Origin: Candidatus Parcubacteria bacterium
GTDB taxonomy: Bacteria > Patescibacteriota > Minisyncoccia > Phycocordibacterales > Zambryskibacteraceae
Direction of reading: 5' to 3'
Assembly: GCA_019661785.1 (NCBI GenBank)
Contig: JAIFWP010000002.1
Span: forward strand, 1-39,058
DNA: 39,058 nucleotides
The notes under the pieces are model-generated. The model saw only the letters and a list, made by a program, of their open reading frames with translations, searched no databases and had not been told where the DNA came from. The position numbers and the translations under genes were made by a program. Positions 3,566 through 36,451 of this stretch are shown here, piece by piece (the first letter of the stretch is position 1; every line of letters begins with the position of its first letter).

Positions 3566-3606
3566 CCGAGTATTCTACCCGCCTCATTTATGCAAGCAAG
3601 CACAGC

Positions 3607-3634: not shown

Positions 3635-3656
3635 TGTCCTCTACTAAGGTTGAATC

Positions 3657-5189: not shown

Positions 5190-5279
5190 TGTTTTTCCTT
5201 ATAAGCTGGTAAGTCTGCCCGAGTCAAATAATCATGGGCATAATGCCAGAGACGGTATGGAACAGACCTCCTTAACGGC

Positions 5280-6650: not shown

Positions 6651-6680
6651 CGTCTAATTATACCTATATAAAGCAGACCG

Positions 6681-7172
6681 CTATTTAGCCGGGTTGGCAA
6701 ACATCTGGACAACAAAAGTGGCTTGTCTGCCGTTGTAGATACCAGTAGCTGTCCCTATGCCGATCTCCGTGTATTGAGGGCGCAAGATATTGAACCTATG
6801 TGTCGGAGACGCAAGCCAGGCATTAACCACCCTGTCTGAGTCCTCGAAGTTCACGGCCAAGTTCTCCCCTGCATACTCATACCTGTACCCTGCTCTAGAG
6901 ATCCACTGCCATGGCAATGTGCCATCTGGACTCACATGGGAGAAGTAGCCCTTGGTTGCCATATCATTGGCCTTGGCCTGAGCAGCTTTGTCTAAGAGAG
7001 CATTACCTGTGAGACTCGCCTCATTGTTGACTCTACGCGCATCGTTAGTGAGCGCGGCTACGACTGCTGGGAGGACAGCTGCCAAGTCCATATCGAACTT
7101 CGATAAGACAACAACCTTGATCAGTCCTCCGGCCAAAACTATGAGGATTAACGCGAGACCCAGCTTCTTCAT
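6681..7172 (-). CDS. Secreted CAP/SCP-domain protein (paralog of 2780-3565)
   Basis: 163 aa. YFSHVSPDGTLPWQW, WLASPTHRFNILRPQYTEIGIGTATG. Confidence 0.85.
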   Translation of the reverse strand: MKKLGLALILIVLAGGLIKVVVLSKFDMDLAAVLPAVVAALTNDARRVNNEASLTGNALLDKAAQAKANDMATKGYFSHVSPDGTLPWQWISRAGYRYEYAGENLAVNFEDSDRVVNAWLASPTHRFNILRPQYTEIGIGTATGIYNGRQATFVVQMFANPAK

Positions 7173-19069: not shown

Positions 19070-20487
19070 TAGTCTTTGCGGAGAAAGAGAGGCGTACCTG
19101 GCTTCTTGTTTTCCTTAACTAGAGCCTTAATCTTGGCCGAAGTCTCCGGCATTATTGGGTTTAGCATTCTGCCGATGGTATAGAGCTTAACCGCAAGGCT
19201 TGCTATTAAGTCTTTATCTTTTGATTCCCACGGTTTCTTCTCTTGTATCTCTTTATCGAGCTCGGCGATTTTTCCCCAGACAATATTTGCGACCCTATTT
19301 ATCTCAAATTTTTCAATGGCATCTATGTAGTCCTGCGGGATTGATTTCTCTGGTAATTCCACAGGAGCAGAGAGGTTCGTCTCGGCTAAGGTCATTATGC
19401 GGGAAGTTAAGTTGCCTAAGCCATTGGCTAAATCACCGTTGTAAGCATCTTTGAAGGATTCTTTGGTCATGTCGCTGTCCTCGAATATAGATACCTTCCT
19501 CGCGAGGAAGTAGCGGAGGGCTTCGGCGCCATACTCATCGATAAGCTCCTTAGGATTTATGACATTGCCTATGGTCTTAGACATCTTCTGCCCGCCCAAG
19601 ATAATGAGTCCGTGGACTAGAACCTTCTTCGGTAGTGGCAAACCAGCGGCCAAGAGCATGCCAGGCCAAATAGCGGTGTGAAAGCGAAGTATGTCCTTGC
19701 CCACTACGTGATAGTCGGCTGGCCAGAACTTATTGAAATTGGCATCATCCTCGCGTCCGTAACCAAGAGCCGAGATGTAGCTCACTAAGGCATCGCACCA
19801 TACATAGATGACTTGTTCCTCGTCTCCGGGCACTGGTATGCCGTGAGGCACAGCGCTCTTCGGTCTTGAGAAGCTCACATCCTCGAGTCCTCGGCCAATG
19901 AAGGCGAGTATCTCGTTCTTCCTCGACTCGGGCAACACCTCCATCTCTCCCGACTCAATAGCTCGCTTTATCTCCGGAGCATACTTGGAGAGTCTGAAGA
20001 AGTAGTTGTTCTCCTTTATCCTCTCCGGCACCGTGCCGTGCACTGGACACTTGCCGTCGACAAGCTCCTTCTCGGTATAAAAAGTCTCGCACGAGACACA
20101 GTAGAGGCCTTCGTATGTGCCTTTGTATATTGCATCGGCCTTAACGAGCGACTCCCACATCTTGAGCGCGCCTGGCCAATGCACAGTCTTGTCTGAAGTC
20201 CTTATGAACTGGTCATGAGAAATCTCCAGCTCTTTGTACAAGGACTCGAAACCAGCACTGACCTTGTCGAGGAACTCCTCGACGCTCTGTCCATTTTCCT
20301 CGGCTACTTTGAGGACCTTGGCCGTGTTCTCGTCGCTACCAGCGAGGAAATACGTATCATCCCCTTTTAACCTGTGCCACCTAGCCATGATGTCGGCGAT
20401 TGTCATCACATAAGCGTGCCCCATGTGAAGGCTCGCATTAGGATAAAAGATGGGAGTAGTTAGATAGAAACTCTTTTTGTCGCTCAT
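19069..20487 (-). CDS. metG: Methionyl-tRNA synthetase
   Basis: 472 aa. TPIFYPNASLHMGHAY, KMSKTIGN, GADAL-type catalytic core. Confidence 0.95.
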   Translation of the reverse strand: MSDKKSFYLTTPIFYPNASLHMGHAYVMTIADIMARWHRLKGDDTYFLAGSDENTAKVLKVAEENGQSVEEFLDKVSAGFESLYKELEISHDQFIRTSDKTVHWPGALKMWESLVKADAIYKGTYEGLYCVSCETFYTEKELVDGKCPVHGTVPERIKENNYFFRLSKYAPEIKRAIESGEMEVLPESRKNEILAFIGRGLEDVSFSRPKSAVPHGIPVPGDEEQVIYVWCDALVSYISALGYGREDDANFNKFWPADYHVVGKDILRFHTAIWPGMLLAAGLPLPKKVLVHGLIILGGQKMSKTIGNVINPKELIDEYGAEALRYFLARKVSIFEDSDMTKESFKDAYNGDLANGLGNLTSRIMTLAETNLSAPVELPEKSIPQDYIDAIEKFEINRVANIVWGKIAELDKEIQEKKPWESKDKDLIASLAVKLYTIGRMLNPIMPETSAKIKALVKENKKPGTPLFLRKD

Positions 20488-20500
20488 CCAGTTAGATTAT

Positions 20501-21562
20501 TTATGATGCGTCCTCAGTTACGGCGGCTATGCGCGCGCTTTTCTCCCTCTCGAGGTCAGAGAGGAACTCCATGAGTATTGCGGCCATTGGCACAGAGATG
20601 AGGATACCAAGGAAGCCAGCCAGCTTGCCTCCGATGAGGAGGGCGAGGATTGAAACCATGGGAGGTACGCCGATGACCTTCTTCACCACGAGTGGATATA
20701 TGAGCTGATTCTCAAATTGGTGGATGATGAGGTAGAGACCAGCGACTATGAGCGCCTGAGGCATGCCGCCGGCACCGAAGGCTACGAGGACAGCAGGGAT
20801 AGCGGCGATGATAGGTCCGAAGAGCGGCACTATCTCGAAGACTCCCGCAGCCACAGAGAGGAGAAGTGCGTGCGGCAAGCGAAGTAAGAGAAGCCCGAGA
20901 TATACGAGCACTGCGATGATAACCGCCAAGAGCAGCTGGCCCTGCATCCAAAGACCGATTTTCTTCTTAGACCTATCCCATAGGTCGATGATATAGCGCT
21001 CCTCCTTCCATGGAGTGATGACTTTGAGGAACTTGCCCACCCCGTCCTCTTGCACTGCTAGATAGAAGGATAGGATGACAATGAGGATAAAGCTGAAGAA
21101 TCCTCCGAAGACGAATGAGGCCGAAGTGAAGACTCCTTGAGAGAAGGAGAGCAGCAGGTCATTGACCCTGCCGGCTATGTCTCCAAGCGAGATGGCCGAG
21201 GAGCCGAAGAGCGTATCCTGGCTGAGAGAGCTCGCATAGTCTGGGAACTGAGCGATGAATCCGGTGAACTCACCCAAGAGCGGTATGAAGAGGAAGTAGA
21301 AGAGCCCAGCGAAGACGAGGGCCGCGGATATGTATATGCCGATAATGGACGGCAAGCGGGGTATCCCCTTCCTCTTGGCCCAGACGGCGGCCGGCTCGAT
21401 GGCGCTCGCGATGACGATAGAGGCTAGGAGCACGAGCAAGAGGTCCTTTATGAGGAAGAGAGCCAGCACGACGATTATGACGATAACCGCCCTCACCCAC
21501 GAGCCTGTGGTGATAATCATCTGGCGCTTATCTGGGGCTCTGCGGCGTTCTAGATCTGACAT
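20501..21562 (-). CDS. AI-2E transporter (PerM) family membrane protein
   Basis: 353 aa. Multiple TM segments; GVFEIVPLFGPIIAAIPAVLVAF; HQFENQLIYPLVVKKVIGVPPMVSILALLIGGKLAGFLGILISVPMAAI. Confidence 0.88.
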   Translation of the reverse strand: MSDLERRRAPDKRQMIITTGSWVRAVIVIIVVLALFLIKDLLLVLLASIVIASAIEPAAVWAKRKGIPRLPSIIGIYISAALVFAGLFYFLFIPLLGEFTGFIAQFPDYASSLSQDTLFGSSAISLGDIAGRVNDLLLSFSQGVFTSASFVFGGFFSFILIVILSFYLAVQEDGVGKFLKVITPWKEERYIIDLWDRSKKKIGLWMQGQLLLAVIIAVLVYLGLLLLRLPHALLLSVAAGVFEIVPLFGPIIAAIPAVLVAFGAGGMPQALIVAGLYLIIHQFENQLIYPLVVKKVIGVPPMVSILALLIGGKLAGFLGILISVPMAAILMEFLSDLEREKSARIAAVTEDAS

Positions 21563-21569
21563 ATGGCCA

Positions 21570-22838
21570 TCATATCACCAAGAGTTTACGCAGGCGAGCA
21601 GAGTTCTTGACGTTGCCCACCACAGCTAGATTCAAGTTCTTCCTCTGGAAAATCTCTCTCGCCACCTCCTGCACCTCCTCGGCAGTGACAGAGCGCACCT
21701 CTCGCTCCACCTTCTCGGGCGTCTTTATAGAATGCTTCACTGTCTCTTGTATTGAGTAGAACTCGGCCAGAGCATCTGAGGTCTCGAGACCAAGATACAT
21801 GCGTCCACAGAGGTATTCTTTAGCCTTCTCAAGCTCCCTCTCCGACACTGGCTCCTCCGTAAGCCTCTTGCACTCCTCAAGCAGCACTTTGACTATCTCC
21901 TCTATGCGCTTGCCATCGATACCGGTAGATATATGGAAGTTGCCATGGTCGCTATAGTCGTCGACATGGCTACTCACATAGTAGCAGGCGCCTAGCTCGT
22001 TACGGAGCTTCTGGTAGAGCCTCGACGAAGCTCCTCGGCCAAGCACGCCAGAGAGTACCGAAAGGGCGGGTATGCGCTTGTCCTTAGTGTCAAAGGCTCG
22101 GAAGCCCAAGATGACATGGGTCTGGTCGGTCTTCTTCCAATGCACGGAGAGTCCCGGAGACTTCTGCTTGTCTTTGACTGGGAGTTTGCCCACGGCCTTG
22201 CCCTTAGAGATATCTTTGAAAACTCTCGACACCTCCCTGCGAGCCTTCGCCTCATTTATACCGCCTGAGACAATGACGACAGTCTTCTTAGCCGTGTAGT
22301 GAGTGTCGCGATACTTATCGAAATCAGTTTTTTTGAACTTCTTTATATTAGAGACTGGACCAGCGATGGGACGGCCGGCCGGAGCGTTGCCGTACAAGAG
22401 TTTGGCGAACTCCTCAACAACTTTAGACTGAGGCTGGTCCTCGTACATAAGTATCTCTTGGATGATGACCCCTCTCTCCTTCTCCATCTCGGCTTCAGGA
22501 AGAGTCGGATTCAAGTACATGTCGGAGACGATATCTAGGAGCTTCTCGAAGTGGCGGAACTCGCCCTTGGCGTAGTACGCGGTGAACTCATTGCCAGTGA
22601 AGGCGTTGTGCTGGGCTCCAAGAGCATCGAACTCCCTAGCGATATTGATAGGATTTGGGCGCTTCTTGGTCCCCTTGAACATCATGTGCTCAAGGAAGTG
22701 AGAGAGCCCGTTTTGCTCCTTGGTCTCGTAGTTAGACCCTGCCTCAACCATAACCAAAACCGTCACGGCTGGGTTATCTTTAATAGGCACCGTTATTATG
22801 CGCAGGCCGTTCTTGAGGGTGGTCTTCTTATACTTCAT
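21570..22838 (-). CDS. M16 family zinc peptidase
   Basis: 422 aa. Inverted zinc motif HFLEH in GLSHFLEHMMFKGTKKR. Confidence 0.93.
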   Translation of the reverse strand: MKYKKTTLKNGLRIITVPIKDNPAVTVLVMVEAGSNYETKEQNGLSHFLEHMMFKGTKKRPNPINIAREFDALGAQHNAFTGNEFTAYYAKGEFRHFEKLLDIVSDMYLNPTLPEAEMEKERGVIIQEILMYEDQPQSKVVEEFAKLLYGNAPAGRPIAGPVSNIKKFKKTDFDKYRDTHYTAKKTVVIVSGGINEAKARREVSRVFKDISKGKAVGKLPVKDKQKSPGLSVHWKKTDQTHVILGFRAFDTKDKRIPALSVLSGVLGRGASSRLYQKLRNELGACYYVSSHVDDYSDHGNFHISTGIDGKRIEEIVKVLLEECKRLTEEPVSERELEKAKEYLCGRMYLGLETSDALAEFYSIQETVKHSIKTPEKVEREVRSVTAEEVQEVAREIFQRKNLNLAVVGNVKNSARLRKLLVI

Positions 22839-22886
22839 AGAGGCTAAGACTACTCTACCCTACCGCTTCTTTCAATATAAAAGAAA

Positions 22887-22911
22887 GGGCGCGGTCTTTC
22901 GACTCGCGCCC
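22887..22911 (-). terminator. Terminator of the lipoprotein gene
   Basis: GGGCGCGAGTCGAAAGACCGCGCCC followed by TTTCTTTTATA. Confidence 0.8.
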
Positions 22912-22929
22912 CTTACGTCCTGCTGCAGA

Positions 22930-23391
22930 TTAGTGCGGACAAATCACAATCATCCCGGCAGAGACATCCTCTCCTGCAACTGTTATGTTGCAAGAGGCAC
23001 GACTTGCGCCGCGATTGAAGTGGACGTACGCCCTAATGACATCGACGCTGCCTGGGTATGCCCACCCCTTCACCTGATGCCAAATGCCATCAAGTGTCTC
23101 CCGATCAGACCGGAAGTTCGTGATAACGAGGTCCGGAGCGATGATTGAAGTGCCCGGGAACTGCTGCTTTGCCCGAAACACGCTGTCTCCGAGGTACTCG
23201 ACCACGAAGAGCGCACCGCCAGCACGAATGGAGTACGTGTATGGCCGCGGCAGAGACGGGTTGCCCGTGCTGTCCGACGGATACACTGACTCGACAACAA
23301 CCGGCGGAGTGTCATCAGACGATGCGCTCGCACCGCTGCAGGCTGAGGCCAGTACGGCCGCCATGAGGATAACAACGAACTGTTTCAACAA
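22930..23391 (-). CDS. Hypothetical lipoprotein (TTG start)
   Basis: 153 aa. Lipobox-like LASAC; AGGAG 7 nt upstream of TTG; own promoter and terminator. Confidence 0.65.
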   Translation of the reverse strand: MLKQFVVILMAAVLASACSGASASSDDTPPVVVESVYPSDSTGNPSLPRPYTYSIRAGGALFVVEYLGDSVFRAKQQFPGTSIIAPDLVITNFRSDRETLDGIWHQVKGWAYPGSVDVIRAYVHFNRGASRASCNITVAGEDVSAGMIVICPH

Positions 23392-23419
23392 GGAGTAACT
23401 CCTGTGAGAGACTCTCTTT

Positions 23420-23449
23420 ATTATACTACTAGAAATAGTAGTATGTCAA
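23420..23449 (-). promoter_or_regulatory. Consensus promoter TTGACA-N18-TATAAT overlapped by a palindromic operator candidate
   Basis: -35 at 23444-23449, -10 at 23420-23425; inverted repeat atactact-agaaat-agtagtat at 23423-23444. Confidence 0.75.
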
Positions 23450-23463
23450 GCTCAAGAATGAGC

Positions 23464-24777
23464 TTAGTTTAGGGCCTCTTTTAGCTCTGAGATTGCTACT
23501 CTCTTCTGCTCTCCTGTATCGCGGTCGCGGATAGTTACGGTATTTAATAGGTCAGGATTCTCGCCTAAAGTATCGAAATCGACGGTGATGCAGTATGGAG
23601 TGCCTATCTCGTCTTGCCTGCGGTATCTCTTGCCGATATTGCCATTGTCATCAAGGATGATATTGCTAAACTCCTTTTTAAGTTCAGCGTAAATCTCCCG
23701 CGCCTTAGCAATCAGCTCAGGCTTGTTTTTGAGAAGCGGAAAAATAGCAGCTCTCACAGGTGCGACATCAGGTTTGAAAGCTAAGTAAACTCGCTTCTCT
23801 CCATTCATCTCATCTTCTCTGTAAGCCGAGAGGAGAACGGCTAGCACTGTACGTCCATGTCCGAAGCTTGGCTCAATAACATGTGGCATAAATCTCTGAT
23901 TGCTCTCGTCATCAAAATAGCTAAGATCAACACCCGATGCCTCCGAATGCATGCGCAAATCATAATCTGTCCTATATGCGAGCCCGTACAGCTCCTTACG
24001 TCCAAAAGGATAATCAAACTCGAAGTCCACTGTGCGCTTGGAATAATGCGCGCGATCTTCATCTGACACTTCAAGCTCGTGAACGCTGTCTTTACTTATA
24101 CCGACTCTCTCAATCCATTTCCACATCTCTTCCTTCCACATCTCAAAATATTTCTCCCAATCAGACTCCTTGATGAAATACTCAAACTCCATTAAATCAA
24201 ACTCTCTTACTCTGAATAAGAAATCTCTTGGAGAAATCTCGTTCCTAAAGGCCTTCCCAATCTGAGCCAAACCGAAAGGCAATTTTGGCTGCATGGTATC
24301 AAGAACATTCTTGAAGTTTACAAACATGCCCTGAGCAAGTTCGCCTCGCAAATAAGCAACGCCCTGGCCAGGAGATGAACCCATCCCAATTGGGAACATT
24401 AGATTAAAGCTGGCTTGGCTTTTTAACTTTCCTCCACAATCTGGGCAAACTTCTTTATCCTCTAGATGGTCAGTACGAAATGTGTGCCCGCACTTTGTGC
24501 AGATAGAAACGGGATCGCTGAAATTTTCCAAGTGCCCACTTGCACGCCAGACTGCCTCTGGAACAACTAAGGATGTAGAGATGGGGAGAATGTCTTCTCT
24601 TTCCTTTACGAAATGCTTCCACCAGAGCTCTTTAATATTATGCGCTAAATCTGCTCCAAGAGGACCGAAATCCCAAGTACCGGCTAAACCACCATAGATA
24701 TCAGACCCAGGAAATACGAAACCCCGCCTCTTTGAGAGCGAGATGACCTTCTCCATCTTGTCGTTAACCTCTGCCAT
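23464..24777 (-). CDS. glyS: Glycyl-tRNA synthetase (dimeric type)
   Basis: 437 aa. SLSKRRGFVFPGSDIYGG, GPLGADLAHNIKELWW, CPDCGGKL, EPSFGHGRTVLAVL. Confidence 0.93.
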   Translation of the reverse strand: MAEVNDKMEKVISLSKRRGFVFPGSDIYGGLAGTWDFGPLGADLAHNIKELWWKHFVKEREDILPISTSLVVPEAVWRASGHLENFSDPVSICTKCGHTFRTDHLEDKEVCPDCGGKLKSQASFNLMFPIGMGSSPGQGVAYLRGELAQGMFVNFKNVLDTMQPKLPFGLAQIGKAFRNEISPRDFLFRVREFDLMEFEYFIKESDWEKYFEMWKEEMWKWIERVGISKDSVHELEVSDEDRAHYSKRTVDFEFDYPFGRKELYGLAYRTDYDLRMHSEASGVDLSYFDDESNQRFMPHVIEPSFGHGRTVLAVLLSAYREDEMNGEKRVYLAFKPDVAPVRAAIFPLLKNKPELIAKAREIYAELKKEFSNIILDDNGNIGKRYRRQDEIGTPYCITVDFDTLGENPDLLNTVTIRDRDTGEQKRVAISELKEALN

Positions 24778-24782
24778 TCACC

Positions 24783-26708
24783 CTACTTTACAACAGTTTC
24801 GTCTCCCTGGACATAGCGGGGGTCGGAGGAGATTCTGGTAGTAACAGCCGCGTTAGTGACCTTCACAGGTAGGTGGGTAAAGCCGTCCGTACCGCTGAAT
24901 ACGATATTAGAGAAGAGGACCGGCACTGCCCCTACCTGGCCCAAGGACGGCGTGAGCGATACGCGGAAGAAAGCCTGTCTGGCCGGAGAGGAAAAGCCCG
25001 CCCCCGAAGCCAAGGTACCCGCATCCCAAGTGACAGTCTTCGTAGTCGCGTCGTAGGTGATAGCGTCATCCTTAGGGCTTATCTCGCCAAGCCAAGTGAC
25101 ATTGGCGCCCAGGGTGCCTGTGACTCTCGAGCCGCCCACATCGTTCTGCGTGTTGCCAAGGTCTAGCTCGATAGTGTAGGTAGTGCCAGTCTCAGCCCTG
25201 GGCGGTATGGGTCCGATGTTAGTGAAGGGTCCTCGCGAGTACAAGGACTTGGACGAGAGAGATACCTCGGAGGCAATCTTCACTGTGCGGCTCTCGCTCA
25301 CACTCACCTGTGACTTGCCCTGCTCAAGGCCCGAGAGAGTAACTACGAGATCTATCTTCTGGTTATTCGAGCCCGCTGTTGGCGCGGAGATGGAAGCGAG
25401 GTTCAGTGAGACGCTCCCCTCCTTGCCTGGGGCGAGGTTACTAAGATCAGAGTCGTTCGACTGATTCCATACTACTCGGCTCTGGTTTGAGTCGTAGAAG
25501 CCGATGGAACCTGGGTCCACTTTGTTGCGGTCGAGGGATGCGCCGGAGAGCTTCACTTCTATTTGCGGAGAGATGAGGTTGGATGAAAGGTTGTTCTTGA
25601 AATCTATTACCATGTGTATCGGCTGTCCGGCTGGAGCAGAGTAGACGGCCGAAGAGTCGCCGTTCAGCTTCACACCCAAATCGAGCGAAGGCCTGTTGAT
25701 GGCGATAACAACCGAGTCAGATGAGAGCGATGTGTCGAAAGTGCTACCGCCCCCGCTTCCCGACCCTACAAAAAAGCGGAATGTCCGCTCTTCGTTGTCT
25801 TCGCCTATGAGAGTCCCGCTCAGACTTACCACCTTCTTGCCTCCCGGGGAGAGGTCGCCAAGGACCCAGACGTTCTTATCCGAGCCAGTCGGTGCTGGCG
25901 AGGAGCCGCTCTGAGTCCAGCCGTACGGATACTCTGCGCGCAAGATAATATTCTTCAGAGGCTCTTCGGAGTTGGCAACTACGCTTACCGTAGCAGTGAA
26001 GGGTTTACCCGATGTCACCGTATCAGGATGCGATACAGTGAGCGATACTGGGGCTGAGCCTATGGTGAGCTCAAAGAGCTTCTCCTTGGTGAAGGTGGCA
26101 TTTGAGCCTCCAACCTTGTAGTCGACAGTGATGCGCACCTCCTTCACATCGCCCTCGGCTCCTAGGAAGATAGCCCTTTCCGGTTTGACCATCTTCTCTC
26201 CGGAACCCAAGACATCTATAACCTCTTTAGTGTGCAAGAGCTCTTGGGTTGGGTTGTCTGCATTGCGAGTCCCGTTAGGGTAAGTGATGTTCAGATGAAC
26301 GTTTGAGAGAGTGCCGTTATTGCCATTCTTCACTGTGACATGGAGTTCGACAGGACTGCCAGCCGAGATAGAGACTGGTCCCTCGACAGAGATGTCTACG
26401 TTCTTGGTGGAGATGAAGTTATCACCCTTAATATATAGAAGTACCGCGGCTATGATAGCGCAGACGCAGAAGAGCGACGCCACAAGGAATATCTTCTTTA
26501 TAAGCGGATACGGTTCAGCCCTGCGCCTCTCGGAGAGGAGCATCTCGTCTATGGGAGTGGACTGCCACGCCTCAGGAGCAGTGTCCCCACTCTCAGACAC
26601 AGGCTCGCGGCTGTCTACGGGACTGTGGTAGCGGGTGCGCGAATTGAGCTTCTCATTGAGTCCCTCTATTCGACCCTTATCTTTTTCCGGCAACATGTTT
26701 GTGATCAA
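24783..26708 (-). CDS. Membrane-anchored CARDB/DUF11-like beta-repeat protein
   Basis: 641 aa. One TM (IFLVASLFCVCAIIAAVLLYI), then repeated domains such as SPVELHVTVKNGNNGTLSNVHLNITYPNG. The start may instead be the ATG at 26696. Confidence 0.65.
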   Translation of the reverse strand: MITNMLPEKDKGRIEGLNEKLNSRTRYHSPVDSREPVSESGDTAPEAWQSTPIDEMLLSERRRAEPYPLIKKIFLVASLFCVCAIIAAVLLYIKGDNFISTKNVDISVEGPVSISAGSPVELHVTVKNGNNGTLSNVHLNITYPNGTRNADNPTQELLHTKEVIDVLGSGEKMVKPERAIFLGAEGDVKEVRITVDYKVGGSNATFTKEKLFELTIGSAPVSLTVSHPDTVTSGKPFTATVSVVANSEEPLKNIILRAEYPYGWTQSGSSPAPTGSDKNVWVLGDLSPGGKKVVSLSGTLIGEDNEERTFRFFVGSGSGGGSTFDTSLSSDSVVIAINRPSLDLGVKLNGDSSAVYSAPAGQPIHMVIDFKNNLSSNLISPQIEVKLSGASLDRNKVDPGSIGFYDSNQSRVVWNQSNDSDLSNLAPGKEGSVSLNLASISAPTAGSNNQKIDLVVTLSGLEQGKSQVSVSESRTVKIASEVSLSSKSLYSRGPFTNIGPIPPRAETGTTYTIELDLGNTQNDVGGSRVTGTLGANVTWLGEISPKDDAITYDATTKTVTWDAGTLASGAGFSSPARQAFFRVSLTPSLGQVGAVPVLFSNIVFSGTDGFTHLPVKVTNAAVTTRISSDPRYVQGDETVVK

Positions 26709-27251
26709 TTATACATTATTGAGCCCGCTTTCTTTGAGACCTTGATTTATAGCTTTGATGAGTTCTGCCCGAGGCAAGTCGAGGCTGTCTTTGTCGAGAT
26801 ATCCGAGCCGGAAGAGAATGCGTGAGACTGTACCAGTTTCCCAGTCAGAGACTTCCGTCTCTTTGTCGTCCAGGAGCTTCAAAGCAGATGCATTGAACTC
26901 GTGGAAGAGCTCAGGATGCTTCTCCTCACCTCTCACTAGGCGCATAAGAAGTGTGCCGACCGAGTAGAGGGACCTGAGAGCATCCTTCCGTCCTCTTAGC
27001 TCTGAGCCTGCATCTCTGACTAGGCCAGCCGTGGTTATGCGCCAGGTATTCTTTCCTCTTACTAGGGAGACCTTGACCAGGGCCATCTCAAGGAGGATAG
27101 AGGCAAGCTTGGAGTCCCTCTTCCTCAACCCTCTCGCTCCGGCATGTATAAGGCCGAGGTCGCGCGTGAGGACTACTACCAGTTTATCCGCCTCGCGCAT
27201 CGGACGGAGAGCAAGGACCACCCCTTCCGTAGTGTAGACGTGGTGCGCCAT
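26709..27251 (-). CDS. recO: DNA repair protein RecO (short)
   Basis: 180 aa. YTTEGVVLALRPMREADKLVVVLTRDLGLIHAGARGLRK. Confidence 0.85.
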   Translation of the reverse strand: MAHHVYTTEGVVLALRPMREADKLVVVLTRDLGLIHAGARGLRKRDSKLASILLEMALVKVSLVRGKNTWRITTAGLVRDAGSELRGRKDALRSLYSVGTLLMRLVRGEEKHPELFHEFNASALKLLDDKETEVSDWETGTVSRILFRLGYLDKDSLDLPRAELIKAINQGLKESGLNNV

Positions 27252-27257
27252 GCCTTT

Positions 27258-30200
27258 TTACAGGACTGGGTCTATGTTCGTAGCGCGCTTCACCTCGTCT
27301 GCGTACTTTATGAAGAGCTCCTTATGCTCCTCTGGGACCTCGTACTGCATGACGTCTCCCGGCTTCAAATCCTTCTCCTTCCTCATCTCTTGGATGCTTC
27401 TTATAATATCTCTCACTCTTCCTTCTTCAATAAGTTCAGGATTGAGGTTCGTGTCGAGAGTGACTCCTTCAATATCCGAGTCCTTAACCTCCTTCACATT
27501 TACCTCGTCCCTTATAAGCTCGGCGTAAGCGCCGTCTAATTTAGCAACGAGTAAGGCGAGGGGCTGGCGTATCTTTATATTGGCCTTCGAACGGGCTTCT
27601 AGAGTCTGCGAGACAATGAGCCTGGTGCGCTCCATATTCTTTATTACCTTCTCATCAACTGCTTTGCCGCTTACCCAGTCACTGAGATGCACGCTTTCGA
27701 CGTCTTCGCTCACTCTCAACTTCTGGAATAGTTCATCGGCATAGAATGGGGCAAAGGGGGCTAGTAGCTTAGACACAGACTTGAGGACGTAGTAAAGAGT
27801 CTGCTTGGCTCCTGCATCTCCATCTTTCAGCCTATCGCGGGAGCGGCGCAAGTACCAAGTAGAAAGGTCATCGATGAAATCTCTTAGAGTTCGCACTGGC
27901 TCAAGGAGCTTGTAGCCGTCGAGCTTCTCAGTCATTGACCCTGCTGTCTCATTGAGACGCGCGAGTATCCACTTATCAAGGATGTGGCGCTCCGAGAGCC
28001 TCATATCCTCTGACTCCAAACTCTTGTCTCTATATAGCTCAAAAAATGCGTAAACATTGTCGAGCAGGTTGAAGACTCTCTTGTTGAGCTCATCGACGGT
28101 CTTTTCGTCGAAATTCTTTGGCTCGCCAGGCTGGTTTACCGAATACATCCAGAGACGCAGAGTGTCTACTCCGTACTTCTCTATCATTTGCCATGGGTCT
28201 ATGACGTTCCCTACGGACTTCGACATCTTTTTGCCCTCCTTATCCAATATGAGGCCGAGGCAGATGGCGTTCTTGAAGGCCCTCCCCTTCTCCATAAGCA
28301 CGCCTACGGCGTGTAATGTGTAGAACCAGCCTCGAGTCTGATCAATTCCCTCAGATATGAAGTCCGCCGGATAACCCGCTCCAGACGCTAGCGACATAGA
28401 GCCCGAGTCGAGCCAGACGTCCATGACTTCCTTCACTCTCCTGTACTCCTTTCCATCTTTCACAAGCACAACATCGTCGATATAAGGCTTGTGCAAGTCG
28501 AGCTCGAAATTATCATTGTGAGGGAGATGGTCTAGCTCAAGCGGGCGCACCTCAGCATTTTCTAGATATACATCCATCGCCTCGGACTCTTTGGCATTGA
28601 AACGTTTGCCCGCGACTATAAGAAGCCAAGCTGGTATCTTGTGCGTCACGATGAGTATCCTCTTGCCTTGGTGCTCCCTATCCAAGCTATCAAGCGCCTG
28701 ACCGAGACGGCGCTTAGTCTCATCGAAATTCTCTCCGCCTTCGCAGCGACCGCTCCACATGTCTCGAGAGTTCAGGAAGGTATGCATCTCATCCTCTGAC
28801 TTGCCCTCAAAGTCTCCGGCGTCGAACTCTCTCAAGCGCTCGTCAAAGATAATGGAGTCCTTGTCTACTCCCAACTTTTGAGCGGCTATCTCGGCTGTCT
28901 CCTTCGTGCGTGCGAAAGGAGAGGCTACTATGAGGTCTATCTTCTTCAGCTTGCCTGCAGTCTTGGCGGATTGCTCCTTGCCTAGGTCAGAGAGATGATG
29001 GCTGTTCTCAAGGCAAGTGCTTACAATCCTCCTAACATTGTTCTCAGCTTGGCCGTGCCGCATAACGAAGTAGGTATTGCCATTGGTCTTGGCGTATTTC
29101 TTGAGCGTGTCGATAGAGTCGACGACGATTCTATCCTTGCCATCTTCTGTCTGCCACACAGGTAGAGGGGTTCCCCAATAGCGCTCGCGGCTTATAGCCC
29201 AGTCCTTAACTTCTCTTAGCCACTCACCAAAACGTCCTTCCTTGATGTAGCTTGGCTCCCAGTTTATCTTCTCGTTCTCCTTAGTAAGCTTATCGCGCAG
29301 GTCGGACATGCGTATATACCAAGAGTCGCGAGCATAGTAGATAAGCGGTGTCTTGCAGCGCCAACAATGAGGATACGAATGCTTAACATTCTCCTGTTTG
29401 AAGAAAAGATTTCGCACTTTAAGATCGTCGATAATGTCTACGGCTAATGTTGGCTTACCGTTCTCGTCTGCCTCATGAACATACCTTCCAGATAAAAACT
29501 CCGTATTAGATTTTTGATCATTTTGAAGTTTTTGGAAGATTTTGTAGTGACCGTCATCAAGAACTAGGTGATATTTAGGAAGACCAATTTTAGTTCCTAA
29601 CTCAAAATCATCTTGTCCATACATTACTGCCGTGTGGACAATGCCTGTGCCGTCATCGGTGTTAACAAAATCTGCTGCATAAATCTTAAAAGCTTTATCT
29701 TTGCCAGGAATATTGAAGACCGAAATTGAATCAGCCAGATAGTCATATAGAGGCTCGTAAGCCAATCCTACTAGATTTGATCCTTTAATTTCCTCGACAA
29801 TCTCATACCCTGCATTTTCGAAAAAGGAGGTGTTATTTTTTTTATCTAGAAAAATCTTTTTAGAGAGAACATACGTTTCTCCATTTCCGGTAGGTGATGG
29901 GTATTCACCATACTTTCCTGGCCCATTCATTTGTCCAGCAGAATTCTGTCTTATTTTTACGTAATCCATGTTTGTGCCAACCGCCAAAGCCACATTTCCT
30001 GGTAGTGTCCAGGGAGTTGTTGTCCATGCGAGTAAATACGTGTTTTCCTCACCAACTAACTTAAACTTTGCGTACACGGAGAGGTCTTTGACGTCTTCAT
30101 AACCCTGAGCGAGCTCGTGTGAGGATAGAGCTGTCCCGCATCGCGGGCACCACGGCAGGACCTTGTAATCTTTATATAAGAGCTTCCTCTTCTCCACATG

Positions 30201-30686
30201 CGAGATGACGCCCCACACTGACTCTATATATGAGTTGTCGAAGGTGTAGTAAGCATCCTTCAGATTGACCCAGTAGCCAATACGATCAGTAAACCTCTCC
30301 CACTCGCTTATATACTCAAAGACGCTCTCGCGGCATTCTTTATTAAACTTCTCCACCCCATAAGCCTCAATATCCTTCTTCGACTTGAAGCCTAGCTTCT
30401 TCTCTATCTGGAGCTCCACTGGGAGGCCGTGCGTGTCCCATCCAGCTTTGCGAGGCACTCGGTAGCCGCGCATGGTCTTGTAGCGAGGCACGGCATCCTT
30501 GAAGGCCCTTGACTCAAGGTGATGTATGCCCGGCTTGCCATTGGCAGTTGGAGGACCTTCATAGAACACGAAGTCTCCCTTAGGGGATTTCTTATCGAGA
30601 GTCTTCTCGAAGATGTTATTTTCCTTCCAAAATTGTAGAACTTTCTCTTCTCTTTGAGATCTAGAAAGCCCTTTATCTTCAGGCAT
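27258..30686 (-). CDS. ileS: Isoleucyl-tRNA synthetase with an inserted histidine phosphatase domain
   Basis: 1142 aa. ClassI synthetase core with TTTPWTLPGNVAL, KMSKSVGN, DVWLDSGSM and DQTRGWFY. RHGQAENN...SPFARTKETA...REFDAGDFEG...VTH lies in the middle of one ORF. Confidence 0.93.
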   Translation of the reverse strand: MPEDKGLSRSQREEKVLQFWKENNIFEKTLDKKSPKGDFVFYEGPPTANGKPGIHHLESRAFKDAVPRYKTMRGYRVPRKAGWDTHGLPVELQIEKKLGFKSKKDIEAYGVEKFNKECRESVFEYISEWERFTDRIGYWVNLKDAYYTFDNSYIESVWGVISHVEKRKLLYKDYKVLPWCPRCGTALSSHELAQGYEDVKDLSVYAKFKLVGEENTYLLAWTTTPWTLPGNVALAVGTNMDYVKIRQNSAGQMNGPGKYGEYPSPTGNGETYVLSKKIFLDKKNNTSFFENAGYEIVEEIKGSNLVGLAYEPLYDYLADSISVFNIPGKDKAFKIYAADFVNTDDGTGIVHTAVMYGQDDFELGTKIGLPKYHLVLDDGHYKIFQKLQNDQKSNTEFLSGRYVHEADENGKPTLAVDIIDDLKVRNLFFKQENVKHSYPHCWRCKTPLIYYARDSWYIRMSDLRDKLTKENEKINWEPSYIKEGRFGEWLREVKDWAISRERYWGTPLPVWQTEDGKDRIVVDSIDTLKKYAKTNGNTYFVMRHGQAENNVRRIVSTCLENSHHLSDLGKEQSAKTAGKLKKIDLIVASPFARTKETAEIAAQKLGVDKDSIIFDERLREFDAGDFEGKSEDEMHTFLNSRDMWSGRCEGGENFDETKRRLGQALDSLDREHQGKRILIVTHKIPAWLLIVAGKRFNAKESEAMDVYLENAEVRPLELDHLPHNDNFELDLHKPYIDDVVLVKDGKEYRRVKEVMDVWLDSGSMSLASGAGYPADFISEGIDQTRGWFYTLHAVGVLMEKGRAFKNAICLGLILDKEGKKMSKSVGNVIDPWQMIEKYGVDTLRLWMYSVNQPGEPKNFDEKTVDELNKRVFNLLDNVYAFFELYRDKSLESEDMRLSERHILDKWILARLNETAGSMTEKLDGYKLLEPVRTLRDFIDDLSTWYLRRSRDRLKDGDAGAKQTLYYVLKSVSKLLAPFAPFYADELFQKLRVSEDVESVHLSDWVSGKAVDEKVIKNMERTRLIVSQTLEARSKANIKIRQPLALLVAKLDGAYAELIRDEVNVKEVKDSDIEGVTLDTNLNPELIEEGRVRDIIRSIQEMRKEKDLKPGDVMQYEVPEEHKELFIKYADEVKRATNIDPVL

Positions 30687-30727
30687 TGTGGGGTTATCTT
30701 AGCATTTTTGCAGACTTTATAAAAGAA

Positions 30728-30758
30728 ACGGCCGGCCTCGTAATGAGGTCGGCCGTTG
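30728..30758 (-). terminator. Terminator of gmk
   Basis: aacggccggcctc-gtaat-gaggtcggccgtt, then T-rich on the minus strand. Confidence 0.75.
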
Positions 30759-30762
30759 TGGG

Positions 30763-31416
30763 TTAGACTGGCACAGTCTCCCATGTAGCGCTCACGCACT
30801 GGCGCACCAGGGTGGGGTTGTGGTATAGCATCATAGATACGGCGCGCCCCTCGGAAATATCTGCGATGAGATTGTTGAGGAAGGAGGCAGTCTGGTTAAG
30901 GTTCACATTCTTGATGACCCAGTCCGCTTCGCCTGCTTGATGGAGCTCCCCCACGGCCGCGTTCAGGCGAGTCTCGAGTTCTTCCGGCGACTCTCCGCTG
31001 TTCCGCTCCATGAGCCGCTTTCGCAACTCCTCGAGTGAAGGCGGCGCGATGAAGATCATCTGGAACTCAGGGAATCTTGCCTTGAGATGCTTCGCCCCCT
31101 GGACGTCGAGGTCGAAGATGACATCCTTGCCGCTTGAGATAAGCGACTCCAGGTTCGAAAGGAGCGTCCCGTAGAAGTTGCCATGGACTTGCGCCCATTC
31201 AGCGAAGAGACCCCTCTCCACCCAGTTCATGAACTCTGCGCGGATGATGAAGTGGTAATGCTTTCCATCGACTTCACCATCTCTCGGCTTGCGGGTCGTG
31301 CACGAGACAGTGACTCCGAAGTCCTTGAGCTCCCGCACCTTCTCGATCAGCGTGGTTTTGCCCACTGCAGACGGCCCAACTACCATGAAGACTTTGCCCT
31401 GCTTGTCTTGCAACAT
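30763..31416 (-). CDS. gmk: Guanylate kinase
   Basis: 217 aa. VVGPSAVGKTTLIEKV, SCTTRKPRDGEVDGKHYHFI, VIFDLDVQGAKHLK. AGGAG upstream. Confidence 0.93.
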   Translation of the reverse strand: MLQDKQGKVFMVVGPSAVGKTTLIEKVRELKDFGVTVSCTTRKPRDGEVDGKHYHFIIRAEFMNWVERGLFAEWAQVHGNFYGTLLSNLESLISSGKDVIFDLDVQGAKHLKARFPEFQMIFIAPPSLEELRKRLMERNSGESPEELETRLNAAVGELHQAGEADWVIKNVNLNQTASFLNNLIADISEGRAVSMMLYHNPTLVRQCVSATWETVPV

Positions 31417-31473
31417 GTGTCATCTCTCCTGAAAGAAGTCTTCGACTACTCTACAATAATTTCCTACTTATGT

Positions 31474-33048
31474 CTACATTTTCTCTGGCGCTGGCATGCC
31501 GAGCACAGTCAGCCCGTTTTTCATCACTATTTTAAAAGCCTCTACTATGGCTAGTCGGTATGGCGACTCGGCATCGTCAGATATGACCTGCTCGTGCGCA
31601 TAGAAGTTATTGAAGCTCGAAGCAAGCTCAGTAAGATATGTGGTTATGAAATGCGGAGCATACTCCCTTTGTGAGCGTAGGACTATCTCGGGGAATCTGT
31701 ACAAGAGTCTCTCAACCATCCTCACCTCTCCCTGTAGGGCTCCCGCATCGCCCTTCTTGTCCGCCTTCTCAAGCACAGAGTTGGCTCGCGCGTGAGCATA
31801 CTGCAGATACACCCCCGAGTCCCCTTCTGTTGAAACCGACTTATCGACGTCAAAGATGATATCCCCGCCCACGTTCGAGCGCAGTATCATATATTTGATA
31901 GCTCCAACAGCTACAGCCTCATCATCCTTGGTCTTTCCCTTCACCTCGTTTATCAAACTCTCGGCAGATATGACCTCGCCTGTGCGCGAGCTCATCTTGC
32001 CGCTTGGCAAGCGCAGAACGCCGTGCGCGAGATGCATCATTTTATTGCGCCATCGGGGATTTATCTGATTCACTGCTTCTAAGACAACGCGGAAGTAGTC
32101 TGTCTGTTCATTAGCTGTGATGACTATTGATTGGTCCAAGTCCTCAGTCTCGAATTTCTGTTTTGTTAGTCCCAGTTCTTTAGCCTCATAAGTCGGTAGG
32201 CCTTGAGAGTTTATAAAAACGCGAGTATGCAGTTGCGGATTGAATTTCTCAGCGTGGAAGACCACTGCCCCCTCGGACTCATCGAATATCTTGCCCATAT
32301 TATCTTCTACAATCTGCTTGCCTATCGGTGCAGTCTCAGACTCGAAGAAGTAACGGTCGAACTTGGTCCCGAGCTTCTTGTATATCTGCTCAAATTTGTC
32401 CAGTGAGTCCTTCTTCCCCGACTCGTACAATGCATTTAACTCCAGGTCTTTGTGTTCGTAAATTTTCTTATTTAGGTCCTCAATCTCCTGCTTCGCCTGC
32501 TCATCCTCCGTATAAGCCTTAGCGCCAGCTGCGTATGGATTCTCTACTTGCTTCATCATGCCCCATATGGCCTTGGCTACGTGGAGTCCCACATCACCTT
32601 GGTAGTTAGCGCGCTTCACCTCTGCTCCGCTCCACTCAGTCACGCGAGCGACAGCCTCGCCGATAGCATTGCTCATAAGATGTCCTATGTGGAGTTCCTT
32701 AAAGGGGTTCGCGTCCGTGTACTCGACCATGACCTTCTCGCCCTTGAGGCTCTCGTTTCTGCCGAAGTCGCCACCCCTCTTTATTATTCCTTTTATATTC
32801 CCCGCAAAGAATTGGCTAGATAGGTAGAAGTTGATAAATCCAGCCCTCTGCTCGACTCGATCTACCTCCTCTGGCTTGTGGCTCTCTAACCACTCTGCAA
32901 GGTCTTGGGACTTTTTTGAAGTGATGCCCGCATTAGTCGAGTAGTCGCCGAACTCGACACGCGTCGGATGCTCCACGCTAAACTTCGTACCGCTTGCTCC
33001 AAGCTCATTCAGCGCTTTCTCGATTAATTTATATAGCTTCTCTTGCAT
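31474..33048 (-). CDS. argS: Arginyl-tRNA synthetase
   Basis: 524 aa. VEYTDANPFKELHIGHLMSNAIGEAVAR, GDVGLHVAKAIWG, LPSGKMSSRTGEVI. Confidence 0.95.
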   Translation of the reverse strand: MQEKLYKLIEKALNELGASGTKFSVEHPTRVEFGDYSTNAGITSKKSQDLAEWLESHKPEEVDRVEQRAGFINFYLSSQFFAGNIKGIIKRGGDFGRNESLKGEKVMVEYTDANPFKELHIGHLMSNAIGEAVARVTEWSGAEVKRANYQGDVGLHVAKAIWGMMKQVENPYAAGAKAYTEDEQAKQEIEDLNKKIYEHKDLELNALYESGKKDSLDKFEQIYKKLGTKFDRYFFESETAPIGKQIVEDNMGKIFDESEGAVVFHAEKFNPQLHTRVFINSQGLPTYEAKELGLTKQKFETEDLDQSIVITANEQTDYFRVVLEAVNQINPRWRNKMMHLAHGVLRLPSGKMSSRTGEVISAESLINEVKGKTKDDEAVAVGAIKYMILRSNVGGDIIFDVDKSVSTEGDSGVYLQYAHARANSVLEKADKKGDAGALQGEVRMVERLLYRFPEIVLRSQREYAPHFITTYLTELASSFNNFYAHEQVISDDAESPYRLAIVEAFKIVMKNGLTVLGMPAPEKM

Positions 33049-33052
33049 TAAG

Positions 33053-33658
33053 TTATTTGCCCGACTTCTTGTTCTTCACCCACTTGCCAGCTAGAGCCAT
33101 GTGCCAAGCGTTCGGGTCGGACTTCTTTATATCATCCCACATTTTCTTAGCAGTCTTAGTATAGAGCTTGGTAGACCTTACATGGGGCCGATGCTCCTTC
33201 ATCATCCTCTCGGCGGCAGTGTCGCCGATACGCACCATCTCCTTGAGCTCGAGATCAACATCCAGATTGTCGGCATCTTTGACTATCCTTGACTCCAAGG
33301 TCTTCCTCTCCTCGTATTCCTTGAGCAAGGCGGCTGTATCTTTGGCCATGATAGTATCCTCGAACATGTCCTTCTCTGCCTGGTCCTCGTGTCTCACCAC
33401 ATAGCCCCTATGGAGGAAGGCTATGTCCCCTGTCCTCGACTCGCCCATGTCGTGTACAAGCATCATCCTTATGACCTTTGAGACATCTGCTCCCTCAGCG
33501 ATGGCAAGCATCCAAGCTATCATGGTGGCCCTAAAGGTGTGCTCAACGATGTTCTGCACCCTGCCTGAGAGGACTTGCTGCCAGGCTCTGGGGACATTCC
33601 TGAGCGAACCGATCTCGAAAAGCAGGTCTATGTCCCTCTTTGGTTTGTTTGGGGCCAT
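33053..33658 (-). CDS. HD-domain hydrolase (YfbR/HDDC2-like)
   Basis: 201 aa. VEHTFRATMIAWMLA, VHDMGESRTGDI, DADNLDVDLELKEM. Confidence 0.85.
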   Translation of the reverse strand: MAPNKPKRDIDLLFEIGSLRNVPRAWQQVLSGRVQNIVEHTFRATMIAWMLAIAEGADVSKVIRMMLVHDMGESRTGDIAFLHRGYVVRHEDQAEKDMFEDTIMAKDTAALLKEYEERKTLESRIVKDADNLDVDLELKEMVRIGDTAAERMMKEHRPHVRSTKLYTKTAKKMWDDIKKSDPNAWHMALAGKWVKNKKSGK

Positions 33659-34903
33659 TTAATTGAAGGTTTTTGGTATTGGGAATCGCTTAGCCAGAGC
33701 CTTAATCTCTTTGTGGACTCTCTGCTTCAGCTTCTCATCATCTTTATTGCGAAGGACTTCCAAGATGAGCTCGGCCACCCTTTTGCACTCTTTTTCTTTA
33801 AATCCTCTCGTCGTTATCGCCGGAGTGCCAAACCTGATACCCGAAGGGTCCATGGGCTTCCTTGGGTCATCCGCAATCATGTTCATGTTGAGAGTAATGC
33901 CAACCTCATCGAGCACTGTCTGAGCCTCTTTACCGGAAACTCCAAGGGAACTATGTATATCGGCCAGAACGCAATGGTTATCCGTACCTCCGCCGATAAG
34001 CCTGACATTATTGTTCTTGAACACTTCCGCCATGGCCTTGGCATTCTTCACAATTTGAGTTGCATACTTTTTAAACCCAGGTCGGAGCGCTTCGTCGAAG
34101 CAAACTGCTTTAGCTGCAATGTTATGCATCAAGGGTCCGCCTTGTAGGCCTGGGAAGACGCTCTTGTCTATCTTTTTCGCAATCTCTTCGCTCTCTCTTA
34201 CGAGAATCATGCCTCCGCGAGGGCCGCGCAATGTCTTATGGGTAGTTGTAGTAATGATGTCAAAACCATAATCAAACGGGTTTTTGGCTGCCTTGCCGGC
34301 AATAAGCCCCGCAATGTGAGACATGTCAGCCATGGTCAGAGCGCCAACCTCCTTAGCAATATCAACAATCTTTTTATAATTGAGCTCGCGAGTGTAAGCG
34401 GAGAATCCTGCCAAGATTAACTTGGGCTTTTCCTTCTTGGCAACACGGAGCATCTCATCATAATCTATCTCGCCTGTTTCAATATTCTTCATCTTATAGC
34501 GAACGAAGCGGAAGATTTTGCTCACGTGAGTCACGGGATGTCCGTGAGTTAAGTGTCCGCCATGAGAGAGGTCCATGCCAAGCACGGTATCGCCAGGTTC
34601 GAGAAGAGCAAAGTAGGCTGCGATATTGGCTGGTGCACCGGCATGGGGTTGAACATTGGCATACTTACATCCAAATAATTTACAGGCACGTTCAATAGCC
34701 AATAGTTCAACTTGATCTGTATAATCCTGTCCACCATAGTAGCGCTTGCCTGGGTAGCCTTCGGAATATTTATTAGTAAAGACAGACCCGTTAGCGGTCA
34801 AAACATCTTGGGAGACGTAATTCTCGGATGGTATGAGCTCAAGGCCCTCGCGCTGCCTCTTCTCCTCTAGCTTTATTAATTTCTCAACCTTTTTGTCTTT
34901 CAT
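33659..34903 (-). CDS. glyA: Serine hydroxymethyltransferase
   Basis: 414 aa. LELIPSENYVSQDVL, NKYSEGYPGKRYYGG, TTTHKTLRGPRGGMIL. Confidence 0.96.
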   Translation of the reverse strand: MKDKKVEKLIKLEEKRQREGLELIPSENYVSQDVLTANGSVFTNKYSEGYPGKRYYGGQDYTDQVELLAIERACKLFGCKYANVQPHAGAPANIAAYFALLEPGDTVLGMDLSHGGHLTHGHPVTHVSKIFRFVRYKMKNIETGEIDYDEMLRVAKKEKPKLILAGFSAYTRELNYKKIVDIAKEVGALTMADMSHIAGLIAGKAAKNPFDYGFDIITTTTHKTLRGPRGGMILVRESEEIAKKIDKSVFPGLQGGPLMHNIAAKAVCFDEALRPGFKKYATQIVKNAKAMAEVFKNNNVRLIGGGTDNHCVLADIHSSLGVSGKEAQTVLDEVGITLNMNMIADDPRKPMDPSGIRFGTPAITTRGFKEKECKRVAELILEVLRNKDDEKLKQRVHKEIKALAKRFPIPKTFN

Positions 34904-35895
34904 TTCGCTTTCTTTTTATTTTGTAGCTTATCTTTCTTAAAAGTACCAAAACCGCCCGTTACAGATAACTCGGCCTTAATCGGCGGATGAGGATTATACC
35001 CTTCAAGTGTTACATGCTCAGGCCTAAAGTCATCGATACCCCTCACCTTCGAGTGAATCTTTACCCTTGGGAAGGGCTTCGGCTTGCGCTTGAGCTGCTC
35101 CCTTGCCTGGTCTAGATGCTTCTCGTACACATGCACATCGCCGAAGCTGTGTACGAACTCGCCAGGCTTGTAACCAAGTACTTTGGCGATAATCACCGTG
35201 AGCAGCGCATAGCTAGCGATATTGAACGGCACTCCGAGAAAGATATCTGCGCTTCTCTGGTACAGATGCAGCGAGAGCTTTTTATCGATAACATTTATCT
35301 GGAACATGTTATGGCAAATCGGGAAGTATGAGGTATCTTTCCTCTCGGCCATAGTGTAGAGATACTCGGGATTCCAGGAGTTCACAATGGCGTTGTGAGC
35401 ATTGGGGTCATCCTTCAACTCCTCTACGGCCCACTTCAGCTGATCTATGGTCTTGCCTGTGCGAGTCGGCCAATGGCGCCACAGCTCCCCATATATCTTC
35501 GGCAGCACTCCCCACTTCTTAGCAAAGGCCTTGTCGCTCGCAATCTTGCCAATGAACTCCTCTTTGGTCATCTTTTGCGCTTGCTTCGAGCCCTTGTTCT
35601 TTATCTTGTAGATACGATAGGGGTAGTCGTCCCAGATGTGCACGTTGTTGTCTACCAGATACTTAATGTTGTTCTGCCCGGACATGAACCAGTAAAGTTC
35701 CCGCAGAACTCCGTTCCAATAAACCTTCTTTGTAGTAAGGAGAGGCAATCCCTCGGAGAGGTCGAACCTCATTTGCCTGCCGAACAAGCTGTACGAGGCA
35801 TCGCCCGTCCCCCTGTCCACCTTGCGGTCGCCGTCCTTGAGGATTTCTTGGAGCAGATTGAGATACTGCTGTTCGGGGTGTCTATCTTTTGGCAT
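34900..35895 (-). CDS. thyA: Thymidylate synthase ThyA
   Basis: Likely start at the internal ATG near 35895. SYFPICHNMFQINVIDKKLSLHLYQRSADIFLGVPFNIASYALL contains the catalytic Cys region. Confidence 0.95.
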   Translation of the reverse strand: MPKDRHPEQQYLNLLQEILKDGDRKVDRGTGDASYSLFGRQMRFDLSEGLPLLTTKKVYWNGVLRELYWFMSGQNNIKYLVDNNVHIWDDYPYRIYKIKNKGSKQAQKMTKEEFIGKIASDKAFAKKWGVLPKIYGELWRHWPTRTGKTIDQLKWAVEELKDDPNAHNAIVNSWNPEYLYTMAERKDTSYFPICHNMFQINVIDKKLSLHLYQRSADIFLGVPFNIASYALLTVIIAKVLGYKPGEFVHSFGDVHVYEKHLDQAREQLKRKPKPFPRVKIHSKVRGIDDFRPEHVTLEGYNPHPPIKAELSVTGGFGTFKKDKLQNKKKAK

Positions 35896-36451
35896 TTCTT
35901 TTCTTCTTAGTTTTCTTGGGCGGGGCATCGGTCTTCCACTTCTCGTTCACATACTTGGTAGCCACTTTGTAGGTCGTGTCTGGATCAGAGGTCATCTGAG
36001 AGAAGGTCAGTTGCCCCACCGGCATGCCTGGAGTGAGCACTATAGGCACCTCATTAAGGTTGCAGAGCTCGAAGGTAATACGGAGAAAGTGGCCCGGGTT
36101 CACTAACCCTGCGGTGTTATGCACCATGAGTCCGATGCGCGCTAGGCTCGACTTGCCATGAAGCTGTATTAAATACTTGTTGGAGCCGAAGTAGTCCTCA
36201 GATATGCCGAGGATGCTGACTCCAGGATGGAGGATGAAGGTCTCTCCCTTTTTGAGCACTATCTCACGCATCTTGGCGTACTGCTTTTTGACCGGGTCTA
36301 TGGCGCCAATGCTCGACGACTCAGTGAGCATGAACCTGTTGCCTAAGAGGATGTCATAGCTTGCGGGCTGAAGCCTCTTCACATCGAAGTCAGAGAGTAC
36401 TATGTCGCCCGACTTAACCGCCTTCTTTATATATGTATCAGATAAGAACAT
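35882..36451 (-). CDS. dcd: dCTP deaminase
   Basis: 189 aa. LQPASYDILLGNRFML, LHGKSSLARIGLMVHNTAGLVNPGHFLRITFELCN. Confidence 0.9.
   Translation of the reverse strand: MFLSDTYIKKAVKSGDIVLSDFDVKRLQPASYDILLGNRFMLTESSSIGAIDPVKKQYAKMREIVLKKGETFILHPGVSILGISEDYFGSNKYLIQLHGKSSLARIGLMVHNTAGLVNPGHFLRITFELCNLNEVPIVLTPGMPVGQLTFSQMTSDPDTTYKVATKYVNEKWKTDAPPKKTKKKRNAKR

Follow-up and report, generated by a model that had tools for sequence, protein, structure and literature searches.

The ileS gene and its nested histidine phosphatase

The window analysed here, a 39,058-nucleotide stretch of a Candidatus Parcubacteria genome (contig JAIFWP010000002.1), contains on its minus strand an ileS gene (27258–30686) that encodes an isoleucyl-tRNA synthetase (IleRS) with a nested histidine phosphatase (HP). 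On the same strand, a recO-like gene (26709–27251; PF11967, RecO_N) lies directly downstream, and the genes for guanylate kinase (gmk; 30763–31416; PF00625) and ArgS (31474–33048; PF00750 and PF05746) lie upstream. The surrounding region (19069–36451) was observed to form a translation and nucleotide cluster, comprising a metG-like gene, a class II synthetase gene, the recO-like gene, ileS, gmk, argS, an HD/YfbR-like gene and the genes for SHMT, thymidylate synthase and a dCTP deaminase-like protein.

The ileS gene is one unbroken frame of 1142 amino acids, as an earlier note on this DNA had read it. In an NCBIfam scan, the protein matched TIGR00392 (ileS) at 848.7 bits against a cut-off of 621.4, and in a Pfam scan, tRNA-synt_1 flanked His_Phos_1 (PF00300) on both sides. 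All three IleRS motifs that were sought are found in the protein, namely, GIHH, the HIGH-equivalent signature (aa 53–56; 30519–30530, minus strand), identified from the sequence and alignment; TTTPWTLPGN of the editing domain (aa 222–231; 29994–30023, minus strand), which is largely invariant in alignments; and KMSKS (aa 820–824; 28215–28229, minus strand), the residues of which are invariant or nearly so. The last two had already been described as intact, and their positions bear this out. Judged from its sequence, the host IleRS belongs to class Ia, has its synthetic and editing parts intact and is predicted to charge tRNA-Ile with isoleucine. We also considered whether it might be a GNAT-type IleRS, and rejected this identity, in that NF040702 (ileS_w_GNAT) scored 306 bits against a cut-off of 1999 and the Pfam scan gave no GNAT match.

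The HP domain belongs to branch 1 and occupies aa 537–720 (28527–29078, minus strand), as supported by the profile match, the AlphaFold2 model and Foldseek. The match to PF00300 covers aa 540–719 at 109.3 bits (up to 114 in another scan; gathering cut-off, 21.7), and the whole inserted stretch, including its linkers, spans approximately aa 534–728. The extent of 28513–29078 given previously was thus off by a few residues at most. The insertion point lies between the strand RYWGTPLPVW and DLHKPYID. In an alignment with the IleRS of Thermus thermophilus (1ILE), residue 477 corresponds to residue 529 of the query and residue 488 to residue 729, so that about 200 residues replace about 10. In 1ILE, the equivalent gap has a CxxC half-site (WVCQAC) on one side and a CxC half-site (CACGG) on the other, an arrangement that we take to be the second zinc knuckle in the connective-peptide region of IleRS. 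The flanks had been said to be nearly contiguous in bacterial IleRS; this holds for IleRS of this type, and it is what we saw in four relatives of the same order. The zinc cysteines are absent from the window protein. Of 78 carriers of an insert at this first site, 25 retain both cysteine half-sites and 37, including the window protein, retain neither.

The four catalytic positions named in the earlier note are all present: the RHG motif (aa 543–545; 29052–29060), in which H544 is the expected phosphate-accepting histidine; the second catalytic arginine, R593, in SPFAR (28908–28910); the catalytic acid/base, E618, in DERLRE (28833–28835); and the second catalytic histidine, H680, in IVTH (28647–28649), all on the minus strand. 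R543, H544, R593, E618 and H680 are each 100% conserved in the 64 main inserts. A full-length AlphaFold2 model built from a 42-row alignment reached a pLDDT of 89.2 and a pTM of 0.81, with most of the HP part at 91–97. In Foldseek, this model matched IleRS structures, best of all the type-2 enzyme of P. megaterium (8c8v/8c8u) and also 1ile, which suggests that the synthetase fold is undisturbed by the HP. Modelled alone, the HP reached a pLDDT of 91.1 and a pTM of 0.89 and showed the alpha/beta phosphatase fold of PF00300. Its best structural match was PhoE (1h2e; TM 0.80, 27% identity over the structural match), followed by TIGAR, phosphoserine phosphatase and mycobacterial phosphatases. Two of the checks that had been suggested for the insert, a PF00300 profile match and a model of its folding, thus came out in its favour; by sequence and structure prediction, the domain nested in IleRS is a complete PhoE-like histidine phosphatase that folds on its own.

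Conservation of the catalytic residues

Loss of the catalytic residues in relatives had been named as a sign against the earlier reading. Of 80 first-site IleRS inserts, 78 have the full catalytic set (R, H, R, E and H), the two exceptions being cut off or N-masked; so do 12 of 12 second copies, two of two third copies and four of five ValRS inserts. The 64 main inserts have a mean pairwise identity of only 0.38, and R543, H544, S589, R593, T597, E618 and H680 are invariant among them in fully occupied columns. Even the shortened HP forms without the cap region, found in genomes of the same family (L269–L274, L278 and L279), retain R-H, R, E and H. Because the catalytic residues are invariant at 38% mean identity, the predicted phosphatase activity of the insert is almost certainly under selection, and the pattern of conservation would be hard to explain without catalysis. 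The suggestion that the domain may be active is thus supported by a catalytic set conserved in essentially every insert, with the activity itself a prediction from sequence.

Distribution in Patescibacteria

The window genome is 545 kb in size and 95% complete, and the insert is its sole PF00300 match. By our count, 92 of the 99 genomes examined from the same genus, family and order (its own included) have an HP inside ileS. This figure combines 81 genomes in which, among the matches listed, PF00300 falls in a synthetase-sized ORF or in a synthetase ORF broken by a contig end, with 11 in which a shortened HP was read by eye; three of the 99 could not be judged. The remaining four (G051, G058, G082 and G083) have an insert-free IleRS of about 972–980 aa, and one of them, G058, has no PF00300 match anywhere in its genome. 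We consider that the domain is dispensable in these four genomes.

In an even sample of 287 genomes from across the phylum, at least about 50 have, among the matches listed, an HP in an ORF longer than 850 aa, and those HP-bearing ORFs that were fetched encode IleRS or ValRS. Relatives with the same architecture include Nomurabacteria, Yanofskybacteria, Paceibacterota and Peregrinibacteria. A nested HP was found in none of 68 IleRS of other phyla, and among the matches listed for 550 genomes of Chloroflexota, Pseudomonadota and Bacillota, in a search that detects only HPs resembling that of the window, no HP fell in a synthetase-sized ORF. On the sequence matches, the nested HP is the rule in the order of the window genome and occurs across Patescibacteria. 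The same insertion, which was to be sought in other patescibacterial IleRS, is thus present there, and the architecture is not a one-off, as it might have seemed from a single genome, given that it extends through the phylum and to ValRS as well.

This distribution also bears on whether the gene could be a chimera of the assembly or an artefact of annotation, a refutation that the earlier note had foreseen. Because an identical junction recurs in dozens of independent genomes, and the same nesting in many families, chance and chimerism are excluded for practical purposes, and the probability left to such an error is negligible. An apparently split or frameshifted IleRS that we examined (L109) proved to be a break of the ORF at an N gap and not biology. 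In another genome (L068; G278:C1:870500-876500), the IleRS occupies two frames beside an A run at approximately 2290–2340, probably as the result of a homopolymer error in the assembly.

ValRS hosts, additional copies and other inserted enzymes

Several variants of the architecture were found. Seven ValRS (L069, L070, L071, L094, L101, L265 and L266) have an HP at the equivalent place, the assignment of L265 and L266 to ValRS being made from sequence only. In the Peregrinibacteria-type IleRS, there are two HPs, the second about 50–60 residues past the first. A 1569-aa IleRS (L062; G338:C4:177000-184000, ORF 676-5382) carries three HPs in three different loops, the last of which precedes the anticodon-binding domain. 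Other enzymes have been inserted too. One IleRS (L066; G143:C25:72500-78500, ORF 1638-5903, minus strand) carries a GNAT acetyltransferase together with an HP ahead of the anticodon-binding domain, and one of the ValRS (L101; G326:C13:19500-25500, ORF 333-4157) holds a HAD-like hydrolase, a serine hydrolase and an HP.

History of the module

How might the insert have come to be so widespread? In a tree of HP sequences, the construction of which had been proposed earlier, one supported main clade unites 57 first-site inserts with five free HPs, and the first- and second-site copies of Peregrinibacteria, the anticodon-side copies and the ValRS copies fall outside it. An approximately unbiased (AU) test does not reject the joining of the Peregrinibacteria first-site copies with the main clade (p = 0.145), and for this reason, the first-site copies of the two groups are not put forward here as having arisen independently. 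Whichever holds for these, the ValRS inserts and those at other loops go back to separate events or to transfers.

Patescibacteria have IleRS lineages of two signature types, and both carry the HP, many carriers having GxHH/AxHH and others HxGH backbones. Vertical inheritance of the insert together with its backbone was rejected, because a single clade of the C-type inserts is rejected (AU p = 5.65e-6); this result should be read with caution, as the T/C label of the backbone switches five times on the IleRS tree. From these two observations, we infer that the HP module has probably been transferred between IleRS genes at one and the same junction.

The five free HPs of the main clade come from G272, G369, G151, G115 and G133, and all five genomes have an insert-free IleRS. 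In G369 (L247; G369:C2:27000-38000, 1590–6820), argS, the free HP gene and an insert-free ileS stand in a row, with a gap of 4 bases before ileS; the place of the HP gene in this cluster is filled by the guanylate kinase gene in the window. In G272, G115, G133 and G151, the free HP is far from ileS. The pattern of fused or free HPs is evidence that HP and IleRS form a functional unit, though only one of the five free copies adjoins ileS and G058 has neither form.

Comparison with known enzymes

The window protein resembles the type-2-like IleRS (P. megaterium IleRS2, 8c8u/8c8v; T. thermophilus, 1ILE) in the whole synthetase fold, the editing domain, KMSKS and the GxHH-type signature, and differs from them in having about 200 extra residues (the HP) in the second zinc knuckle, from which the zinc cysteines are gone. 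The IleRS described by NF040702 likewise bear an extra enzyme domain; there, the cargo is a GNAT, whereas it is a phosphatase in the window, and the patescibacterial L066 has both kinds. With PhoE (1h2e) and other branch-1 HPs, the insert shares the fold (TM 0.80) and the catalytic R-H, R, E and H, but those are free enzymes, whereas the present one is nested in a synthetase and is 27% identical to PhoE over the structural match. Mycobacterial MutT1 and the RNase H/acid phosphatase of NF005567 are also HPs fused to an enzyme acting on nucleotides or nucleic acids; their partners are, however, different enzymes, with no nesting in a synthetase. In MutT1, changing RHG to RAG left the activity on pNPP and NDK-phosphate unaltered (PMC11784022). 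The phosphatase activity measured for MutT1 thus does not stem from its RHG domain, which calls for caution, in that such a domain may be conserved and yet show no catalysis in known assays.

A search of open-licence full text found no report that joins IleRS or any other synthetase with a histidine phosphatase, in agreement with the earlier impression that the architecture had not been described. Extra domains on synthetases are already known; what is new is the combination with an HP and its recurrence throughout a phylum.

A possible role of the nested phosphatase

On sequence and structure prediction, we regard it as very likely that an active, selected phosphatase is nested here inside a working IleRS. 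In histidine phosphatases, the first histidine accepts the phosphate and an acidic residue protonates the leaving group; a pair of arginines and the second histidine bind the phosphate, which is released by water. In the window protein, R543, R593 and H680 would bind the phosphate, H544 would accept it from the substrate before water frees it, and E618 would serve as the proton donor/acceptor. The product of ileS would then be a two-enzyme polypeptide, in which the phosphatase is carried by a synthetase that is both essential and abundant. Placed in a surface loop, the HP may disturb neither part, so that each IleRS molecule would have one phosphatase.

What might this phosphatase act on? Of the NCBIfam equivalog models tried for characterised HP subfamilies (dPGM_arch, cobC, GpmB, PspA, SixA and RNase H/acid phosphatase), none was reached at its cut-off by the window HP. 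The best scores were 87.2 against 326 (NF005567), 77.6 against 225 (dPGM_arch) and 62.2 against 162.9 (cobC), and the substrate is consequently not predictable by homology. Our leading guess is a small phosphorylated metabolite or a nucleotide. Inorganic pyrophosphate (PPi), which the earlier note had listed among the conceivable targets, is disfavoured, as is a replacement of pyrophosphatase by the insert: a soluble pyrophosphatase (PF00719) is encoded in the genome itself and in 63 of 99 relatives, and its presence or absence does not track the insert, G051 and G082 among the insert-free genomes having it and G058 and G083 lacking it.

The HP may well be a passenger, a reading to which we give somewhat less than an even chance. 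The zinc-knuckle loop would be permissive, and an HP, common as a free enzyme in these bacteria, would have been parked there to do ordinary phosphatase work that has nothing to do with aminoacylation (e.g., on phosphates of sugars or nucleosides), with the fusion fixing its dose and expression. The insertion of other enzymes (GNAT in the IleRS of L066, HAD-like and serine hydrolases in the ValRS of L101), the HPs in three different loops of L062, the distance of four of the free main-clade HPs from ileS and the fact that the insert is the only HP of its genome all fit this reading. However, a pure passenger leaves the repeated choice of an HP unexplained; moreover, the hosts found again and again are IleRS and the closely related ValRS, and in G369, the free HP gene stands 4 bases upstream of ileS. 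Alternatively, the HP may be a coupled enzyme that acts on something the synthetase makes or meets, such as AMP, Ap4A-type dinucleotides, or a phosphorylated amino acid or tRNA end, and thereby pulls the reaction or clears inhibitory by-products. The recurrent fusion to two editing synthetases, the complementary fused and free distribution of one HP clade with one operon including ileS, and the precedent of an HP fused to a nucleotide hydrolase in MutT1 argue for such coupling; removal of PPi, on the other side, would be superfluous beside a soluble pyrophosphatase that does not track the insert. Passenger and coupled enzyme both fit the data, and we regard coupling as possible, if rather unlikely.

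Two further explanations seem less probable. The HP could protect the cell by dephosphorylating a synthetase-targeting antibiotic (an adenylate or nucleotide mimic) or a synthetase inactivated by a kinase. The GxHH-type signature of type-2 IleRS is linked to mupirocin hyper-resistance, many carriers have a GxHH/AxHH signature, the structure nearest to the model is that of a type-2 IleRS resistant to mupirocin, and GNAT, for which NCBI has a model of IleRS bearing it, is another insert partner. Yet the HP is found on HxGH backbones as well, PADLOC gave no hit and nothing ties the HP to a specific inhibitor, so that protection appears improbable. That the domain is a dead structural filler, stabilising a knuckle that has lost its zinc cysteines, would suit the 37 of 78 carriers, including the window protein, in which neither half-site is kept; it is at odds with the 25 that keep both cysteine pairs and with catalytic residues that stay invariant as the rest drifts, and we consider it very unlikely.

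A more far-reaching, tentative reading is that the IleRS and ValRS of Patescibacteria might repeatedly have taken in an active HP that acts on a product, an inhibitor or a regulatory mark of aminoacylation, as a third activity beside synthesis and editing.

With the nested phosphatase, these bacteria of minimal genome would have an unexpected enzyme on every IleRS, which raises the question of whether translation depends on, or is regulated by, a built-in phosphatase. The findings also point to the zinc knuckle of class Ia synthetases as a place where whole enzymes are prone to become nested, which should be useful for studies of protein evolution, and they matter for annotation, because curated models call such genes simply IleRS.

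Other features of the window

Apart from the negative PADLOC result, a PHROGs search matched one family only, of unknown function. At 7207–9081, we observed an ORF of 624 aa that has no Pfam match and whose neighbours are genes of secreted type encoding peptidoglycan-binding and Ig-like domains.
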